Assembly: GCA_025924845.1 (NCBI GenBank)
Contig: JAICHN010000161.1
Coordinates: forward strand, 1 to 10,141
From: Chloroflexota bacterium
GTDB lineage: Bacteria > Chloroflexota > UBA5177 > JANWHV01
Reading direction: 5' to 3'
DNA: 10,141 bases
The stretch's first letter is position 1. Every line of letters begins with the position of its first letter. This document shows, in pieces, positions 206 to 10,141 of this stretch. A program made the position numbers and the translations under genes. Under the pieces are notes generated by a model that was not told the origin of the DNA, did no database searches, and saw only the letters and a program-made list of their open reading frames with translations.

Positions 206-1138
206 TTAGTGATGCGAGAGTACGCCCACCGGCGGGCGATGGGCTAACGCATGATCGATCAGGCGCCGTGCCTCTTCCAGTTCGGTCCCCACCAACTCGA
301 GTCGCGGCCCGCGCACGCGCGCGCTCCCCATGCTTACCATCTCCTGGGCGAGCTTGATCAGTTGCACGAACTTCGGCACGGTGTCCAGGCGGAGTAGGGG
401 AAGGAACCAGGTGTAGAGCGCGTCGAGCGCCGCCCGGTTGCCGTGCCCATCGCGCACATCCATGGCAAGCCGGTAGAGGTCGATGGACTCGCCTGGAAAG
501 GCATTGACCAAGCCGGCGATCCAGCCGACCGCTCCCGCCTGCACCGCTTCCACAATGCCGTCATCCACCCCGATCAGGATCTCCAGGCGGTCGCCGATCA
601 GGGCATGGATTGCCTTGATGCGCCGTACATCCGTGCTCGATTCCTTGACCGCCGCCAGGTTGGCATGATCGCGGGCCAGTTCGGCGATCTGTTCGGGCAG
701 AAAGTCGGTTCGATAGGCGGGCGGATTATTGTAGAGCATGACCGGCAGGTTGACTGACCGGATCACGGCCGCCACGTGCGCCTTCATTTCGCGCCAGTCG
801 GTAGAGTAGGCATAGGGGGGCAGGACCATCACCCCGCTGCAGCCCGCCGTCTCGGCCATCTGGGCCAGGCGCACCGCATCTCTGGTTGCCAAGGCCGCCA
901 CGCCGGGGATGATCGGTACCCGATCACCCACCGCCGCCACCGCCGTTTTGAGCAACGCCGCCTTCTCGTCATAATCCAGGGTGGCGCCCTCGCCCAGCGA
1001 GCCGAGCGGCACCAGGCCGACGCAACCCGCGTCGACCAGCCACCGGCAATGCTCGGCGAAGAAAGCATGATCGATACTGCCGTCCTCGTTGAACTTGGTC
1101 GTCATCGCGGGAAGTACGCCGTGCCAATTGACCTTCAC
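206..1138 (-). CDS. DapA/NAL-superfamily enzyme, probable Delta1-pyrroline-4-hydroxy-2-carboxylate deaminase
   Basis: This 310-residue protein has the length and layout of the class I dihydrodipicolinate synthase/N-acetylneuraminate lyase barrel. Visible landmarks are GVLPAMTT at residues 7-14, the substrate-carboxylate loop GSLGEG at 46-51, the YNNP motif with catalytic Tyr136, and the Schiff-base lysine Lys165 in AAVKESS. The C-terminal part (KFVQLIKLAQEM, RGPRLELVG) also resembles the hydroxyproline-pathway branch. In that branch the enzyme deaminates and dehydrates Delta1-pyrroline-4-hydroxy-2-carboxylate to 2-oxoglutarate semialdehyde. The function is assigned mainly from context: it is the last gene of an operon with a hydroxyproline epimerase and a HcnABC-type dehydrogenase. 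The start is GTG at 1138-1136, which overlaps the previous stop codon as GTGA; the open frame continues upstream to 1372, but that extension lies inside the previous gene. Dihydrodipicolinate synthase or a sugar-acid aldolase is possible but less likely here. Confidence 0.88.
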   Translation of the reverse strand: MKVNWHGVLPAMTTKFNEDGSIDHAFFAEHCRWLVDAGCVGLVPLGSLGEGATLDYDEKAALLKTAVAAVGDRVPIIPGVAALATRDAVRLAQMAETAGCSGVMVLPPYAYSTDWREMKAHVAAVIRSVNLPVMLYNNPPAYRTDFLPEQIAELARDHANLAAVKESSTDVRRIKAIHALIGDRLEILIGVDDGIVEAVQAGAVGWIAGLVNAFPGESIDLYRLAMDVRDGHGNRAALDALYTWFLPLLRLDTVPKFVQLIKLAQEMVSMGSARVRGPRLELVGTELEEARRLIDHALAHRPPVGVLSHH

Positions 1139-2418
1139 TGAACTACCTTCTCTCTTGACTGGAGGGGAGCGCCGATCTGGGCGAGGCTCCCCAATGTGCA
1201 TGGCGTGATCGGCGCCCGAACCGAATCCTGGGTCCAGCCGAATAGGAAGGCCGAGGCGCCGCCGCAGACTCGGCCCTGGCATGGTCCCATCCCGCAGCGT
1301 GTGTGCAGTTTGGCGCTCCTCCAACTGCCGTGTTCGCACACGGCGGCGTACGGCACATCCTCGCAGCGGCACACGAGCGTGTCGGGATCGGCGAGCATCT
1401 TGAGCTCGTCGCGCAAGGCGAATCCTTGGCTCAACGCGGCGGCGAAGCGGTGGGCGTGGGTCCGGCTGGGAAACAATGCTCGTGCCTCGGCCTCCTGCCC
1501 TGTCGCGGCCAGCCCGGCGATCCGCCCTTCGGCCAGCGCCGCTTCCAGGCCGGCCACGCCGGTCACCTCACCGGCGGCGTAGATGTGGTCGCGGCTGGTC
1601 CGTTGCCGTTCGTCCACCTGGACCGCGCCCTCGACCACCGCGCAGCCCAGGGCACGGGGCAACTCGAGGTTCGGGGTCAGGCCAAAGCCGCAGGCGAGAT
1701 ACTCGCATTCCAGCGTCCAGGCGCCGCCGTGCTGTATCGTGACCGCTTCCAGGCGCTCCGTCCCCCGCGCCCTGACTACCCACGCACCTGCCCGAAACGG
1801 CACGCCGCGCAAGCTGCCGCCGAGCCGGCCTGCCTGGCGCAGTTTATCCCAGTCGGAAAGGAGCCAGCACGAGAAGGTGGCCAGCTTTCGCCATGGCGTC
1901 TGCTCGATTACCGCCGTCACGCGGGCGCCCTTGCCGGTCAGATACGAGGCCACGGCGAGGAGGAGCGGACCGCTTCCCGCCACCACGACACGCTTGCCCT
2001 TGATCGGCATGCCGCCCTTGACCAGCGCCTGGAGGCCGCCCGCACCGAACACGCCGGGCAGCGTCCAGCCCGGAAAAGGCAGGAAAAGTTCGCGCGCCCC
2101 TGGCGCGAGGATCAGGCGTCCGTAGGCAAGCTCGATCGGCTCGCTTGTCGTGTCGGCAATCAGTCTGCCGGCGTCCGGCGCGGCGACTACACGGGTTCGG
2201 GTGAGCAGACGCACGTTGGGCACGCCGGCACGCCTGATCCAGCGCGCCGCTTGCTCGGTAGGGATGCCGCCCGGTCCGCCGCGCCAGATTTGCCCGCCTG
2301 GCTGGGGGTTGTCGTCGATCAGGCCAACCGTCGCCCTGCTCTCCGCCGCGCCCACCGCCGCCGCCAGGCCCGCCGGCCCTGCCCCAACCACCAGCACCTC
2401 GAACTGGAGATCCTTCAT
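1135..2418 (-). CDS. HcnB-like FAD/NAD(P)-binding subunit of D-hydroxyproline dehydrogenase
   Basis: A 427-residue flavoprotein. The N-terminal dinucleotide-binding motif is VVGAGPAG (residues 10-17), followed by the PQPGGQIWRGG segment typical of the HcnB/alpha-subunit family. A second Rossmann motif, VVVAGSGP, is at 144-151, and IYAAGEVTGVAGLEAALAEG (279-298) closes the FAD site. The C-terminus carries a BFD-like iron-sulfur domain with Cys350 and Cys352 (CRC) and Cys375/Cys380 (CGMGPC), plus Cys385. Relatives include hydrogen cyanide synthase HcnB, octopine/nopaline oxidase subunits and the hetero-oligomeric D-hydroxyproline dehydrogenases of bacteria. The flanking epimerase and deaminase point to oxidation of cis-4-hydroxy-D-proline to Delta1-pyrroline-4-hydroxy-2-carboxylate. 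The subunit would carry electrons between flavins and iron-sulfur centres. ATG at 2418-2416 overlaps the preceding stop codon by 4 nt (ATGA), and its own stop overlaps the deaminase start by 4 nt. Confidence 0.9.
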   Translation of the reverse strand: MKDLQFEVLVVGAGPAGLAAAVGAAESRATVGLIDDNPQPGGQIWRGGPGGIPTEQAARWIRRAGVPNVRLLTRTRVVAAPDAGRLIADTTSEPIELAYGRLILAPGARELFLPFPGWTLPGVFGAGGLQALVKGGMPIKGKRVVVAGSGPLLLAVASYLTGKGARVTAVIEQTPWRKLATFSCWLLSDWDKLRQAGRLGGSLRGVPFRAGAWVVRARGTERLEAVTIQHGGAWTLECEYLACGFGLTPNLELPRALGCAVVEGAVQVDERQRTSRDHIYAAGEVTGVAGLEAALAEGRIAGLAATGQEAEARALFPSRTHAHRFAAALSQGFALRDELKMLADPDTLVCRCEDVPYAAVCEHGSWRSAKLHTRCGMGPCQGRVCGGASAFLFGWTQDSVRAPITPCTLGSLAQIGAPLQSREKVVQ

Positions 2419-2657
2419 CCCGTCACCACCGTCATCCCATCCTCACATGGGGTTTGGCAGCCGAGGCGATGGGCCTGGCCGTCGATCGTCACTCGGCACT
2501 CGAAGCAGATGCCCATCCCGCAGAGCGGTCCCCGTGCCTCGCCGCGCACCGAGCGCCGATAGGCGCCCACGCCGGCCAGGGCGACGGCGGACGCCACCAT
2601 GGATCCCGCCGAAACGCGCACCGCGCGTCCGTTCACGGTGAGGCTGAGCTCAGGCAC
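2415..2657 (-). CDS. HcnA-like small [2Fe-2S] ferredoxin subunit of D-hydroxyproline dehydrogenase
   Basis: An 80-residue protein with a beta-grasp plant-type ferredoxin layout. The N-terminal strand is LSLTVNGRAV, and the cluster ligands are Cys46, Cys51, Cys54 and Cys67 (C-x4-C-x2-C-x12-C, in LCGMGICFEC and LGCQTPC). This is the normal size and pattern for the small gamma/HcnA subunit of heteromeric amine/imino-acid dehydrogenases, where it shuttles electrons between the two flavoprotein subunits. The chosen start is GTG at 2657-2655: GGAGG lies 6 nt upstream, and the family homology begins here. The open frame extends to 2783, but the extra residues (Arg/Ser/Cys/Pro-rich) are the previous gene read in another frame. 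It overlaps the upstream HcnC-like gene by 8 nt and the downstream HcnB-like gene by 4 nt, which fits stoichiometric coupled translation of the complex. Confidence 0.88.
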   Translation of the reverse strand: MPELSLTVNGRAVRVSAGSMVASAVALAGVGAYRRSVRGEARGPLCGMGICFECRVTIDGQAHRLGCQTPCEDGMTVVTG

Positions 2658-3774
2658 GGGCCGCCTCCAAGGAGAGGCGCGCCGGCAGATACGGCTCGAT
2701 CGGGATCTCCAGGGGCAGGCCGAGCAACTGGGCGGCAAGCAGTTTGGCCGTAGCAGGCGCGCTGGTGATGCCCAGTCCTTCATGTCCGGTGGCTAGCCAG
2801 AGGCCAGGCCGATCTGGATGAGGGCCGACCAAGGGCAATCCATCCGGCGTGGCGGCGCGGAAGCCGGTCCATACCCGAAGACATGAGAGTTGGGCCAGAG
2901 TTGGTAGGTAGGCGAAGGCGCGATGCAGCATCTGGGAAAGGATACCGTGATCGCAGGCGTCTGACTGAACGTCGAACTGCCGCGACGAGCCGATCAGCAC
3001 CTGGCCCGTGCCTCTGGGCTGCACGTTAAACGCCACCGAATCACCGTCCGTTGCATGCGCGTTCTTGATGTAGCCCAGTTCGACCAGTTGATGTCGCACG
3101 AAGCCGGGGTAGCGGTCGGTGATCGCCAGGTGTCCTTTCTTGGCGCGGATTGGCAAGTCGGGGACGAGATCGACAGCGCGCGCTCCGTTGGCGAGCACCA
3201 CGGCGTCACCGCGTAGCTCGGCGCCGCTTGCCAGCTGGACGCTGCCTGGAAGCACGGCGGTCACCGTGCCGCCAAGCAGGCGGGCGCCCCGTCGGCAGGC
3301 GCGATCGAGGAGCAGCGCCGCGCTGCCCGGTGGGTAGACCACGCTGTCCTCGGGGACGAGCAGGCCGCCCGCCAGGCCGGGCCGTAGATTCGGCTCAAGA
3401 TTAGAGAGCGCCTGGGAGCCAAGAATCTCGCATGGCACGGCCTGGGCCTGATAAGCGGCATGTTTGAGCTGAACGGCGTGCATTTCCTCGTCGTCCTCGG
3501 CCACCCAGATCGTGCCGCACTGCCCGTACTCGTGGGGCGCCCGCGCCTCCTGGGCAAAGGTATTCCAGAGCACCTGGGAGTAGCGGGTTAGTGCAAGCTG
3601 GGCAGGGCTGTCGTCCATCACCACGATATGCCCCATGCCTGCCGCCGTGGCGCCGCTGCCCACCACGTCGCGCTCCACCAGCCCAACCGATACGCCGCCC
3701 GCCGCCAACTCGTGCGCACAGGCGGCGCCCACGATACCGGCGCCGATAATCAGCACCTCGAAGGACTCAGGCAC
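2650..3774 (-). CDS. HcnC-like FAD-dependent (DAO-family) catalytic subunit of D-hydroxyproline dehydrogenase
   Basis: A 374-residue protein of the D-amino-acid oxidase/glycine oxidase (DAO) family. It starts with VLIIGAGIVGAACAHELA (residues 8-25, FAD-binding GxGxxG), followed by an acidic residue ending the second strand (VERD) and the GSGATAAGMGHI segment. The C-terminal motif ATGHEGLGITSAPATAKL is the conserved FAD/substrate-closing element. In the HcnABC/heteromeric dehydrogenase group this is the beta subunit, which takes hydride from the substrate C-N bond. Together with the epimerase next door, the substrate is most likely cis-4-hydroxy-D-proline. The start is GTG at 3774-3772, sharing one base with the epimerase stop codon (TAGTG). 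The ribosome-binding site is weak, so translation probably depends on re-initiation. The homology starts immediately, which supports this start. Confidence 0.9.
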   Translation of the reverse strand: MPESFEVLIIGAGIVGAACAHELAAGGVSVGLVERDVVGSGATAAGMGHIVVMDDSPAQLALTRYSQVLWNTFAQEARAPHEYGQCGTIWVAEDDEEMHAVQLKHAAYQAQAVPCEILGSQALSNLEPNLRPGLAGGLLVPEDSVVYPPGSAALLLDRACRRGARLLGGTVTAVLPGSVQLASGAELRGDAVVLANGARAVDLVPDLPIRAKKGHLAITDRYPGFVRHQLVELGYIKNAHATDGDSVAFNVQPRGTGQVLIGSSRQFDVQSDACDHGILSQMLHRAFAYLPTLAQLSCLRVWTGFRAATPDGLPLVGPHPDRPGLWLATGHEGLGITSAPATAKLLAAQLLGLPLEIPIEPYLPARLSLEAARA

Positions 3775-4706
3775 TACGAAATGCCCTGGCGAAAGGGATC
3801 GCGCTCGTCGAAGAGCAGGCTGCCTTCAAGGGTAATGAACGCGGAACCGGTGATGGCGGGCAAGATCCGAGCGTCCTCGATCGCGTAGGTTGCCTCGAAA
3901 CGGCTGCCGATGATGCTCTCCTGCACCCAGATCGCGCCCGGCGCCAGTTTCCCATCACTGGCCAGACAGGCCATTTTGGCGCTGGTCCCGGTGCCGCAGG
4001 GCGATCGATCGTACGCCTTGCCGGGACAGAGGACGAAGTTGCGGCTATCGGCGCCGTCGCGGCCGGGCGCGAACAGTTCGATATGGTCGATCAGTGCTCC
4101 GTCGGCGCCGGTGATGCCTTGCCGCTCCAACGCCTGACGGATACGCCAGGTCAGATCGGTTAGCGGCTCGACATCCGCGAACCGCAATTCCCGGCCGTGA
4201 TCGTCGACCAGGAAAAACCAGTTTCCGCCCCAGGCCACGTCGCCGGTGACGCGGCCGTGTCCCGGCACCTCTACCGACACGCCCCCGGCAAAGCGATAAC
4301 TGGGTACGTTGTGTACCGTGACCCGCCCATCCTCGTGCAGATGCGCGGTGACGACGCCGACCGGCGTTTCGATCCGGTGCGTGCCCGGCCTGATCTGTCC
4401 CAGATAGGCGAGCGTAGCCACCAGGCCGATCGTACCGTGCCCGCACATCCCCAGGTACGACACGTTATTGAAAAAAATCACGCCGGCGGCGCAGGTGGGG
4501 TCGGTGGGGGCGCGGAGCAGGGCGCCGACCACCACGTCGGAGCCGCGCGGCTCGTTGACCACGGCGGAGCGGAACCCGTCGAAGCGTTCGCGAAACACGG
4601 CCAACTGCCGGGCCAGGCTGCCCCCGCCCAGGTCAGGCCCACCGTCGATGATCAGGCGCGTCGGTTCACCGGCGGTGTGCGAATCAATAATGTTCACTCT
4701 CTGCAT
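3774..4706 (-). CDS. 4-hydroxyproline 2-epimerase (proline racemase family)
   Basis: A 310-residue member of the proline racemase superfamily, of normal length. It begins with the N-terminal signature [13 protein letters not shown] (residues 7-19). Both catalytic cysteines are present: Cys88 in MCGHGTIG and Cys237 in [10 protein letters not shown], with Asp233 in AYDRSPC. Two cysteines indicate a racemase/epimerase rather than the trans-3-hydroxyproline dehydratases, where one cysteine is replaced. The MCGHGTIG context and the operon favour 4-hydroxyproline 2-epimerase over proline racemase. It would convert trans-4-hydroxy-L-proline to cis-4-hydroxy-D-proline, the first step of the pathway. 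The ATG at 4706-4704 is preceded by GAGG about 10 nt upstream. It lies 67 nt downstream of the reductase gene with no convincing promoter between, and it shares one base with the next gene's start. Confidence 0.93.
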
Positions 4707-4773
4707 GCGCTCATCGCCTCGCTTACTTCATCCTGGTCCTGAATGCGACGCCGACCCTCTTGTCGCCATCGAG

Positions 4774-5469
4774 TCAGGCGGGCGCGATGAAGGTGCCGGG
4801 GCTGTTCGGGGTGCCGCGAAACTCCGGACTACGCTCCGGTTTCGCCTCGGACAGGGCGCGGCGCACCCCGTCGGCATCGAAGTCGTGGGTGTAGACCGGG
4901 GTGCCGGGCTGTTGCCGCCAGGATTCGTCCAGCCCGCCCGCGTCAACCCCATCAAAGCCGAGCTGGTCGATCAGCCGCAATACGACCGCTTTGGCCGCCG
5001 GATCATCGCCCGCCACGGGTAGGGCGATCCGCCCTGGCGTGCCGGCCGGTTTGCCCAGTTCCAGCAAGTGTTGCGCATAGATATTATTGAATGCCTTGAC
5101 CACGGGCCGACCCAACTGCTGCTCGACCCAACGACTCTCCGGCATGCCGGCCTCGATTGCCTCGATTCGGCCATCGCGCTGTCGCGGATAGTAGTTCCCG
5201 GTGTCAACGACCACGACGTCCTTGGCCGCCTCGTCGAACAAGCCTGCCGGCAGGCTCGGCACGTTCTTCTCGGGAATGGTCACGATCACCACTGCCGCGC
5301 CCCGTGCCGCTTCCGTGACCGGTACGGCAGTCGCGCCTGTCTCCGCCGCCAGATCGCGGAGCGTCTCGGGTCCGCGCGAGTTGGCCACGGCAACCTCGTG
5401 CCTCAGCGCGGTGAAGCGCCTGGTGAGCGTGCCGCCGATGTTGCCCGCGCCGATGATGCCGATTTTCAT
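4774..5469 (-). CDS. NADP/F420-dependent oxidoreductase-like dinucleotide-binding protein (COG2085 type)
   Basis: A 231-residue Rossmann-fold protein. The N-terminus MKIGIIGAGNIGGTLTRRF carries the GxGxxG motif, and the following strand ends ANSRGPETL, whose Ser-Arg after the second strand suggests NADP(H). VVIVTIPEKN and VVVVDTGNYYPRQRDG (Rossmann half) and VVKAFNNIYAQHL are characteristic of the 'NADPH-dependent F420 reductase'/F420_oxidored family. True F420 reductases cannot be told from other oxidoreductases of this family by sequence reading alone, so the substrate is unknown. The start is ATG at 5469-5467, because GGGAGGAG sits 5 nt upstream. A GTG immediately before it (5472-5470) would be only 2 nt from the Shine-Dalgarno and is rejected. 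It is the first gene after the extended -10 promoter and precedes the hydroxyproline genes by 67 nt, so it is probably co-transcribed with them. Confidence 0.82.
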   Translation of the reverse strand: MKIGIIGAGNIGGTLTRRFTALRHEVAVANSRGPETLRDLAAETGATAVPVTEAARGAAVVIVTIPEKNVPSLPAGLFDEAAKDVVVVDTGNYYPRQRDGRIEAIEAGMPESRWVEQQLGRPVVKAFNNIYAQHLLELGKPAGTPGRIALPVAGDDPAAKAVVLRLIDQLGFDGVDAGGLDESWRQQPGTPVYTHDFDADGVRRALSEAKPERSPEFRGTPNSPGTFIAPA

Positions 5470-5474
5470 CACTG

Positions 5475-5482
5475 CTCCTCCC
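5475..5482 (-). promoter_or_regulatory. Strong Shine-Dalgarno deciding the reductase start
   Basis: On the minus strand the sequence is GGGAGGAG, 5 nt before ATG 5469 and only 2 nt before the alternative GTG 5472. The spacing picks the ATG as the start codon. Confidence 0.75.
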
Positions 5483-5486
5483 GGAA

Positions 5487-5508
5487 GGGGCTGCCGTCGA
5501 GGCGCCCC
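5487..5508 (-). promoter_or_regulatory. Leader hairpin just upstream of the ribosome-binding site
   Basis: On the minus strand GGGGC-GCC, loop TCGAC, then GGC-A-GCCCC forms an 8-bp stem with one bulged A. It ends 4 nt before the Shine-Dalgarno of the reductase gene and lies inside the roughly 58-nt leader expected from the promoter at 5534-5542. It could modulate translation or protect the 5' end. No known riboswitch is recognised. Confidence 0.35.
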
Positions 5509-5533
5509 ATGGTGTCCTCACTGCTCAACCCCG

Positions 5534-5542
5534 ATCATACCA
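5534..5542 (-). promoter_or_regulatory. Extended -10 promoter for the reductase/hydroxyproline operon
   Basis: Minus-strand TGGTATGAT: a TATGAT -10 box (5539-5534, five of six bases match TATAAT) preceded by the TGn extension. There is no good -35 at the usual distance, as is common for extended -10 promoters. The predicted transcription start is about 5527, giving a leader of about 58 nt. This is the only convincing promoter seen upstream of the six-gene set. Confidence 0.5.
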
Positions 5543-5624
5543 GCGTCATCGATAGGCGGTGCGGCCAGTGGTAAACATAGAGCACTGCTACGGGAAGCGC
5601 TCGAACTTTTAATTGACAGCGCAG

Positions 5625-5655
5625 AGAAACCGGCGCGGACTCCGCGCCGGTTTCT
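5625..5655. terminator. Strong GC-rich hairpin, likely terminator after the PRC-barrel gene
   Basis: AGAAACCGGCGCGG (5625-5638) and its exact reverse complement (5642-5655) form a 14-bp perfect stem with a 3-nt loop. It begins 17 nt beyond the PRC-barrel stop codon on the minus strand and lies upstream of the operon promoter, so it would insulate the two units. Both sides have only short T stretches (TTTCT), so efficiency and direction are uncertain. 9-bp arms AGCACTGCT (5581-5589) and AGCAGTGCT (5666-5674) also flank it as an outer inverted repeat. Confidence 0.7.
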
Positions 5656-5672
5656 ATACGCCTCCAGCAGTG

Positions 5673-6356
5673 CTACCGCACCGCCTCCCTGGCGTCCACA
5701 TTGAGGTACACGACCCCGTCGTCCACCGAATCGATCTCGGAGACCGGCAACTCCCATTCCTCTCCCTTAAATAGGCCCTTATGCACTACCAGACCGGTCA
5801 GGTGGTTGTCGGCCGGATCGAAGGTAAGCTCACGCACCGTCCCCACCTTCTCGCCATCGCGGCCAAGCACATCGCTGCCCTCACCGATCACGGCATTCTC
5901 CAGATCCTGACGTCGCAGCGCGGCGTGGACCTCGCGGTCGGTCGTGCTGTCGCCGGTCCAGGTCGGAGTGACCGGGCTTGCCGCCGGTTGCAACTCACCC
6001 GCCGTGAACTGCCGGCCGCCCGCCGGTACGCCCATCCCGTAGCCGACCGGCCAGTAGAACGCCGACGCCGGATAGGCCAACGGCAGCCGGTAGTCGACGG
6101 GCGGGGAGGTATAGTCGGCCTCCTGGAAGTCCGGGAGTCTATCAACCTCCTCGGAGGTGTAGGCGATGCGGGCGTCTCCGCCGGGGCGGGCCATGACCAT
6201 ATCGGCGGGAACCTCGACGTCCTTGTGAAGGATGACGCCCTTGCGCACCACTACCGCCTTCACCGCGCTGCGGTTGGGATCGAGGATCAGCCGATCGACC
6301 GTGCCCAGATCCTTGTCGTCACTGGTGTACACATGCATGCCCAGAGTAATATCCAT
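5673..6356 (-). CDS. Two-domain PRC-barrel protein
   Basis: A 227-residue protein with two PRC-barrel-like units. The first spans roughly residues 1-70 (LGMHVYTSDDKDLGTVDRL, then AVKAVVVRKG and VEVPADMV). The second spans roughly 155-225 (GSDVLGRDGEKVGTVREL, then HLTGLVVHKGL and WELPVSEIDSVDDGVVYL). They are joined by a linker of about 80 residues rich in Pro, Tyr, Gly and Thr (residues 72-150). PRC-barrels are small beta-barrels found in photosynthetic reaction centre H subunits, RimM and many stress-related bacterial proteins; the role here is unknown. There is no signal peptide or membrane segment, so it is probably cytoplasmic. The ATG at 6356-6354 has AAGGGG about 9 nt upstream. It forms its own unit, ending just before the hairpin at 5625-5655. 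Confidence 0.8.
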   Translation of the reverse strand: MDITLGMHVYTSDDKDLGTVDRLILDPNRSAVKAVVVRKGVILHKDVEVPADMVMARPGGDARIAYTSEEVDRLPDFQEADYTSPPVDYRLPLAYPASAFYWPVGYGMGVPAGGRQFTAGELQPAASPVTPTWTGDSTTDREVHAALRRQDLENAVIGEGSDVLGRDGEKVGTVRELTFDPADNHLTGLVVHKGLFKGEEWELPVSEIDSVDDGVVYLNVDAREAVR

Positions 6357-9073: not shown

Positions 9074-9826
9074 TCATGCCGCCTCTTGGGGCGCCGTTCG
9101 ATAGGTGAAGCGGAGACCCGCGCTCCCGGCGAGCAGGAGCAGCCCCGCGGCCAGGCCAAGCGCGGCCGCGACGGTGACATTGAGAATGAGGAGACTGCCG
9201 ACCGCGGCCCCGACGACCATTGCGGCGACGGCGGCCAGCCTACGGCCAAGCCGGGGATTATTGCCACCCGCAGGCAGTGAATCGGCGGCGATCCTGGTGA
9301 GCGTCATCGTCAAGACGGTAGTAGTCAGGTCGGCGACGCCCACCCACCGGGCCACCGCGTTCCGCAGACCCATGGCGAGGGCGAGCAGCGTGATCAGTAT
9401 ATAGCGAGCAGGATCGGCGACCGGATCGTCGCCGGTCGCGGCCGTGATCAGGGCAACAGTGACAAGCACGAACTCGATCGCGATCGCGATAGTCAGCAGT
9501 CGTCCCCGCTGCCTACCTAGGCGAGCACCAAGGCGTCCTCCGGCGATGCCCCCGATCAGGAAGGCGGCGAGAGAGACGAGCGAGGCGGCGATGGACAGGC
9601 TGCCCGCGCCCGCGAACGCGAAGCCCAGGAACACGATGTTGCCGGTCATGTTCCCCACGAAGACATGGCCGAGCTTGAGGTAACTGACGGCGTCCACCAC
9701 CCCGGTGACGCTGATCAGAACCAGCAGCAGCGGCGGCAACGGACCATCCAGGTCGGTGCGGCTAGGGGCGACGGTTCGGGCCGCATCGGCGATCACCTGG
9801 CCCGATCCCTGCTTTCCATCCGGCAT
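9074..9826 (-). CDS. DUF1275/YoaK-family integral membrane protein
   Basis: A 250-residue protein, about the usual length for DUF1275 (YoaK family). After a polar N-terminus of about 28 residues come some six to seven hydrophobic segments (approximately 29-49, 55-74, 77-98, 110-130, 141-160, 198-216, 218-236). The family signature is clear in the first two: VTGVVDAVSYLKLGHVF and VGNMTGNIVFLGF (residues 40-68). AMGLRNAVARWVGVADLTTT (151-170) matches the second conserved block (G-x-Q/R-N-A ... D-x-T-T). The molecular function of the family is not established. The ATG at 9826-9824 has AGGAG (9837-9833) 6 nt upstream. The frame stays open to 10126, but that extension runs through the inverted repeat, starts in non-coding sequence and lacks family similarity, so it is excluded. 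It stands alone; the upstream region and first codons form one arm of the long inverted repeat. Confidence 0.88.
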   Translation of the reverse strand: MPDGKQGSGQVIADAARTVAPSRTDLDGPLPPLLLVLISVTGVVDAVSYLKLGHVFVGNMTGNIVFLGFAFAGAGSLSIAASLVSLAAFLIGGIAGGRLGARLGRQRGRLLTIAIAIEFVLVTVALITAATGDDPVADPARYILITLLALAMGLRNAVARWVGVADLTTTVLTMTLTRIAADSLPAGGNNPRLGRRLAAVAAMVVGAAVGSLLILNVTVAAALGLAAGLLLLAGSAGLRFTYRTAPQEAA

Positions 9827-10141
9827 AGTTGTCTCCTGACGCAACCCCAGCCGGTTCATTCCAGCATACTGTCTCCCGCCTAACCCATCCCCCTTTGCTG
9901 AAGTATGGGGGTGCCTCGCGAGTAGGGGCGCGGGTCTCCAGGCCCGCCTTAGCTTCATCGCCGGCCGGGGCCGTGCTGCCTGGCTGACGACCCATGGTCG
10001 CACCAAGCGGGCCTGGAGACCCGCGCCCCTACTCGCGAAGCACCCCCATGCTTCAGCAAAGGGGGGATGGGTTAGGCGGGAGACAGTATGCTGGAATGAA
10101 CCGGCTGGGGTGGCGTCAGGAGACAACTATGCCGGATGGAA
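9814..10141. repeat. Long near-perfect inverted repeat reaching the window edge
   Basis: The left arm, 9814-9947, is the reverse complement of 10007-10141, with a spacer of about 59 bp (9948-10006). By eye there are three substitutions (at about 9843, 9903 and 9914) and one single-base length change in a C run (five Cs against six, near 9889-9893), so about 97% identity over 134 bp. Each arm holds an inner short hairpin GCGGG/CCCGC (9930-9934 with 9943-9947), the ribosome-binding site AGGAG, and the ATG and next codons of the DUF1275 gene. The repeat is cut by the window edge, so its true length is unknown. Confidence 0.93.
10129..10141 (+). CDS. Possible first codons of a divergent DUF1275 twin
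   Basis: ATG CCG GAT GGA A at the right edge mirrors exactly the first codons (MPDG) of the DUF1275 gene on the minus strand, with AGGAG at 10118-10122 at the same spacing. Whether a full gene follows cannot be seen; it may be a paralogue, a broken copy or an assembly fold-back. Confidence 0.35.

Follow-up and report, generated by a model that had tools for sequence, protein, structure and literature searches.

Inverted duplications joined through a short inverted repeat are familiar from the bacterial tandem inversion duplications (TID) and from ODIRA, both of which are put down to template switching at such repeats. A second point of comparison is provided by palindromes tagged with GTAG, which were surveyed in 2013 (Di Nocera et al., PMC3733652); the excerpts of that survey used here place Chloroflexi among the phyla with GTAG repeats, and report that dimers with GTAG on the outside are favoured in most families, that dimer partners are mostly 20-100 bp apart, and that many A. 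variabilis GTAG-15 dimers sit within longer palindromes. The GTAG-REPs are recognised by a palindrome with an unpaired GTAG, a head-to-head dimer with a spacer of 20-100 bp, many copies in the genome, and the presence of a RAYT (Y1 transposase), the hypothesized mobilizer. Inverted joins have also been described as artefacts, and inverted chimeras are reported to form at natural inverted repeats, with some of the palindromic artefact reads carrying mismatched bases (PMC10908179, in the portion of that paper drawn on here); foldback reads are described in long-read data as well (PMC12870357, likewise in part).

The window analysed here is probably a complete Chloroflexota contig of 10,141 bp, and the structure of interest lies at its right end, upstream of a DUF1275 gene. 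The features of the window are as follows.

206-4706, minus strand: five genes with Pfam matches to DHDPS, Pyr_redox_2, Fer2_4, DAO and Pro_racemase
9074-9826, minus strand: DUF1275 gene (YoaK-like, PF06912; Pfam E 1e-35) of 250 aa, with AGGAG upstream of the ATG
9814-9947, minus strand: left arm of the inverted repeat (134 bp), with first codons, ribosome site, leader and GTAG palindrome
9827-9921, minus strand: DUF1275 leader, from start codon to GTAG tag, mirrored in 10033-10128
9922-9947, plus strand: GTAG-tagged, REP-like palindrome with a 6-bp stem and outward tag, the 26-mer being identical in both arms
9948-10006, no strand: 59-bp spacer of the putative head-to-head dimer, unique and without a mirror copy
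10007-10032, minus strand: second GTAG-tagged palindrome, inverted and identical (from 26-mer comparison and fold)
10007-10141, plus strand: right arm of the inverted repeat (135 bp), with palindrome, leader copy, AGGAG, ATG and 13 coding bases
10129-10141, plus strand: copied first codons ATG CCG GAT GGA A, read from the sequence

The five genes at the left form a set suggestive of hydroxyproline catabolism. Between two genes further along there is a separate inverted repeat (5619-5661) with two 21-base arms, 90% complementary and one base apart, which is possibly a terminator hairpin. The PRC-barrel protein (5673-6356) has four organism-named relatives among the 120 listed, all from Chloroflexota (P0125, P0168, P0202, P0224); in the viral contigs it gave one pattern match and no relative, and it was found in none of the 8 genomes reached through loci, a search run without a positive control.

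The first-pass annotation had described the segment 9814..10141 as an inverted duplication with arms about 97% identical, each bearing the tag GTAGGGGCGCGGGTCTCC, an AGGAG and an ATG and facing outward, and this description stands, with the qualification that the right copy has only 13 coding bases before both the arm and the contig come to an end. The arms differ at four places in about 135 columns: there are three substitutions, at 9843/10112 (A in the left arm, C in the complemented right arm), 9904/10050 (T/C) and 9915/10039 (C/T), and one indel of 1 base, where the right arm has an additional G (10061). Without a break the arms match over at most 50 bp (9844-9893 / 10062-10111), whereas in 30 resamples of the window under a first-order Markov model the longest such match was 13-20 bp; when the 328 nt are folded as one RNA strand the predicted energy is -323 kcal/mol against a shuffle mean of -139 (z = -31.7), with none of 100 shuffles as low. 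On its inner side the mirror stops exactly where the two identical 26-mers end, and beyond the palindrome each arm holds about 108 bp comprising the leader, the AGGAG and the first codons of the DUF1275 gene. We regard this anatomy, the position of the inner mirror edge at the inner ends of the palindromes, and the identity of the arms as established; the coincidence of mirror edge and palindrome, and the four differences between the arms, are both points that we count in favour of a real duplication.

Each 26-mer consists of GTAG followed by 4 unpaired nucleotides and a 6-bp stem, so that both copies are short palindromes with an unpaired GTAG at one end; the fold itself is no better than that of shuffled sequence, with a DNA fold energy of -5.7 kcal/mol for the lone hairpin that is equalled or bettered in 36 of 200 shuffles, a result that counts against the duplication reading. 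The tags at 9922 and 10032 point outward across the 59-bp spacer, as in a head-to-head dimer. The motif GTAGGGGCGNG occurs in the window at these two exact sites and at two others with one mismatch, and 11 of 200 shuffles also reach four. Because the tag, the outward orientation and the spacing match the layout given in the excerpted parts of PMC3733652, the core (9922-10032) fits a known kind of element, and is probably a head-to-head GTAG-REP dimer of the BIME-like type, the likeness comprising a tagged palindrome, an inverted pair, outward tags, a spacer within 20-100 bp, and occurrence in Chloroflexi. That such dimers are favoured, and that GTAG repeats are reported from this phylum, is a further point for a real duplication. 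The locus departs from the REPs of that survey, as excerpted, in two respects: the mirror extends 108 bp beyond the tags into the start of a gene, and the pair precedes a gene start, REPs being found for the most part downstream of coding regions according to the survey.

In the right arm (10037-10054) two of the three substitutions perfect a GAAGC/GCTTC pair that is imperfect in the left (9900-9917), and this stem was at one point considered as support for the structure. We have withdrawn it; of the 528 variants of the left 33-mer that carry two transitions, 15 equal or surpass the right 33-mer in fold energy, the predicted fold of the right 33-mer is a CCCCC/GGGGG stem with TGC/GCA inside, and the energy comparison thus misses the GAAGC/GCTTC stem altogether.

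Further copies of the repeat were sought in several collections. The exact 26-mer and a leader 24-mer are both absent from the viral contigs, and the repeat gave a single 23-base match among plasmids, results that are counted against the duplication; the viral and plasmid collections hold little from the host group as far as is visible, so absence from them says little about that group. The whole window found gene-level matches in three plasmid records (Streptantibioticus 2, Burkholderia 1), and Rfam returned no match at its gathering threshold. A degenerate REP pattern occurs in 7 viral contigs, representing three distinct sequences (L081 = L085, with L082 a variant of these, and L083 = L084 = L086 = L087 around the match); none of the seven has a second, inverted GTAGGGGC nearby, and these putatively coding matches were set aside as copies of the element. 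GTAGGGGC is also found once per locus in 12 of 80 DUF1275 loci, and once in 50 kb of the T. roseum plasmid, which is the level expected by chance.

The content of the copied arm can be compared with the relatives of the DUF1275 protein, of which there are 6170 at E <= 0.001; among the best 120 of these the named ones are mostly from Streptomyces and others. When the N-terminus was aligned with 15 relatives, the start motif GGKQ was found to be common to only two of them, P0003 and P0004. The start MPDGKQGSG resembles MSGGKQDPGG in P0004, and P0003 has a similar stretch, PGGKQDSGG, that lies eight residues in from its predicted start; P0002 begins MTGERQGVDG, and the starts predicted for P0005 and P0006 are shorter. 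The resemblance to P0003 and P0004 counts for a real duplication, and the restriction of the motif to 2 of 15 relatives, together with the shorter starts of P0005 and P0006, counts against it. The shared motif is modest evidence that the copied start is the DUF1275 gene's own sequence; a start belonging to the gene would favour duplication over a mobile element bringing in start signals. As a separate observation, the DUF1275 frame remains open through the inverted repeat (9074-10126, minus strand; 350 aa from a TTG at 10126), which means that automatic gene calling might run the gene on across the palindrome.

With a probability of roughly 0.5, we favour the interpretation that the structure is a real and recent inverted duplication of the DUF1275 start region that was seeded at the REP dimer. 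The starting state would have been a head-to-head GTAG-REP dimer upstream of the DUF1275 gene. A strand would then have folded at the two inverted REPs and polymerase continued along the other arm, by template switching or snap-back synthesis, placing on the opposite side of the dimer an inverted copy of the DUF1275 leader and start (at least 108 bp past the tag, and perhaps all of the gene). The arms would subsequently have diverged by the three substitutions and one indel. The end of the mirror at the inner end of the REP and the gene content of the copied arm are features read from this one sequence rather than against a pre-duplication relative; we infer that the structure is present in the chromosome, that it arose by template switching, and that copying ran from left to right. 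The arrangement resembles TID and ODIRA inverted duplications in having a short inverted repeat at the junction and longer copied arms outside, and differs in that the far end of the duplication lies beyond the end of the contig. That position at the contig end counts against the duplication, as does the fact that no second assembly with the structure was found.

The principal competitor is a technical fold-back, in which the inverted REP pair let single strands fold back on themselves while the library was prepared, amplified or sequenced, or a second strain's leader allele was connected through the 26-bp REP in an assembly graph of low k; in the true genome the REP dimer would then stand alone, followed on the right by unrelated sequence. 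We consider this a serious possibility, if somewhat short of an even chance. In its favour, the mirror starts at the REP and is cut off by the contig end, and for all tested k up to 29 (21, 25-29) the terminal k-mer of the contig recurs in the left arm, as at a collapsed graph branch, which also weighs against the duplication. A mixture of two strains lacking any inverted duplication yields every k-mer of 9948-10141 at k 21, 23, 25, 26 and 27, but leaves 2, 4, 14, 24 and 28 of them over at k 29, 31, 41, 51 and 55 respectively; how far these remainders argue against a misassembly depends on the assembler and the type of read, and the 24 k-mers that the strain mixture leaves unexplained at k = 51 are counted for a real duplication on condition that the reads were short. 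At k = 29 the window contains 27 repeated k-mers, all inside the inverted repeat, of which the number falls to 1 at k = 50 and to none at eight tested values of k from 51 to 141. Since the repeats vanish at k = 51, a short-read assembler would have passed both arms by use of a longer k or of spanning reads, again on condition that the data are short reads; the 50-bp exact repeat requires resolution above k = 50, a requirement that a single noisy long read would escape. An earlier suggestion that the contig ends by collapse at k = 29, its last 29 bases being those of the left arm, is weakened by the consideration that the 50-bp exact arm would collapse also.

The mismatches between the arms had been taken in the first-pass annotation to argue against a simple fold-back of one molecule, and in part this is upheld: four differences exceed what plain copying of one molecule gives. 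They are nonetheless not decisive, in view of the fit of a strain mixture at k 21-27 and of the mismatches reported in some artefact palindromes in the part of PMC10908179 used here. The locus shares with the PDSM chimeras of that paper and with the long-read foldbacks of PMC12870357, so far as the portions drawn on describe them, a mirror joined through a natural inverted repeat and a position at the end of a sequence, and the existence of these described artefacts counts against a real duplication; it is unlike them in that the arms differ at 4 sites in 135, with the same caveat concerning mismatched palindromes.

A second possibility raised at the outset was that two divergent DUF1275 paralogues share a duplicated control region. 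Two complete paralogues of this sort would be the full-length outcome of an inverted duplication and are compatible with it, and the start at least is copied, the right arm repeating exactly the AGGAG, the ATG and 13 coding bases of the left; the cluster to which the protein at 9074-9826 belongs (P0001) moreover holds 2 member sequences with 1 contig listed. The 13 bases are, however, all of the coding sequence that the contig offers, and the loci covered here give no parallel. We examined the best 80 of 82 DUF1275 loci, which reach up to 5 kb on each side, are in some cases clipped by contig ends, and include no title naming Chloroflexota; tblastn matched DUF1275 in all 80 and found a divergent pair in none of them, which with this coverage is weak evidence against such a pair. 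Apart from members of its own cluster, no relative exceeds 77% identity among the best 120 of the 6170, and a search with the N-terminal 90 residues returned 240 proteins, among 120 of which (proteins of about 50-158 aa only) the best match has 73% identity and none exceeds 80%, the few at 80% covering little over half of the query. We consider a complete second paralogue unlikely. One locus, L006 (Pseudonocardia sp. N23), contains a stretch of DUF1275 matches at 4238-5675 that could accommodate two adjacent same-strand copies; the two regions overlap, and a joining effect of the script may explain them.

The remaining proposal, that a MITE- or REP-type element donated promoter and start signals, survives in that the core looks like a GTAG-REP dimer, but its extended form, a larger MITE-like palindromic element whose 134-bp arms are terminal repeats and whose one end supplies the leader and start codon, is in our estimation very improbable: the longer palindromes around A. 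variabilis GTAG-15 dimers (PMC3733652, as excerpted) and the presence of the start motif in only 2 of 15 relatives speak for it, while a comparable stretch is present in P0003 and P0004 at their starts or close by, modest evidence that it is gene sequence, the viral and plasmid collections, with their apparently sparse sampling of the host group, yielded no further copy of the arm, and donation of a promoter is without support here because a sigma-70 pattern scan of 9780-10141 on both strands, a search by pattern only, revealed no promoter-like site.

If the structure is a fold-back, it cautions that where REP dimers lie at contig ends, spurious divergent promoters can result. If instead the duplication seeded at the REP dimer is real, two near-identical leaders would face away from each other, and the locus would be a fresh inverted duplication with a REP dimer as its junction, showing that such dimers can copy the start signals of a gene to the other strand. 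A broader suggestion, and one to which we give only a small chance, is that REP dimers are hot spots at which replication folds at paired palindromes, and that this gives rise to head-to-head paralogues with mirror-image leaders capable of forming cruciforms.
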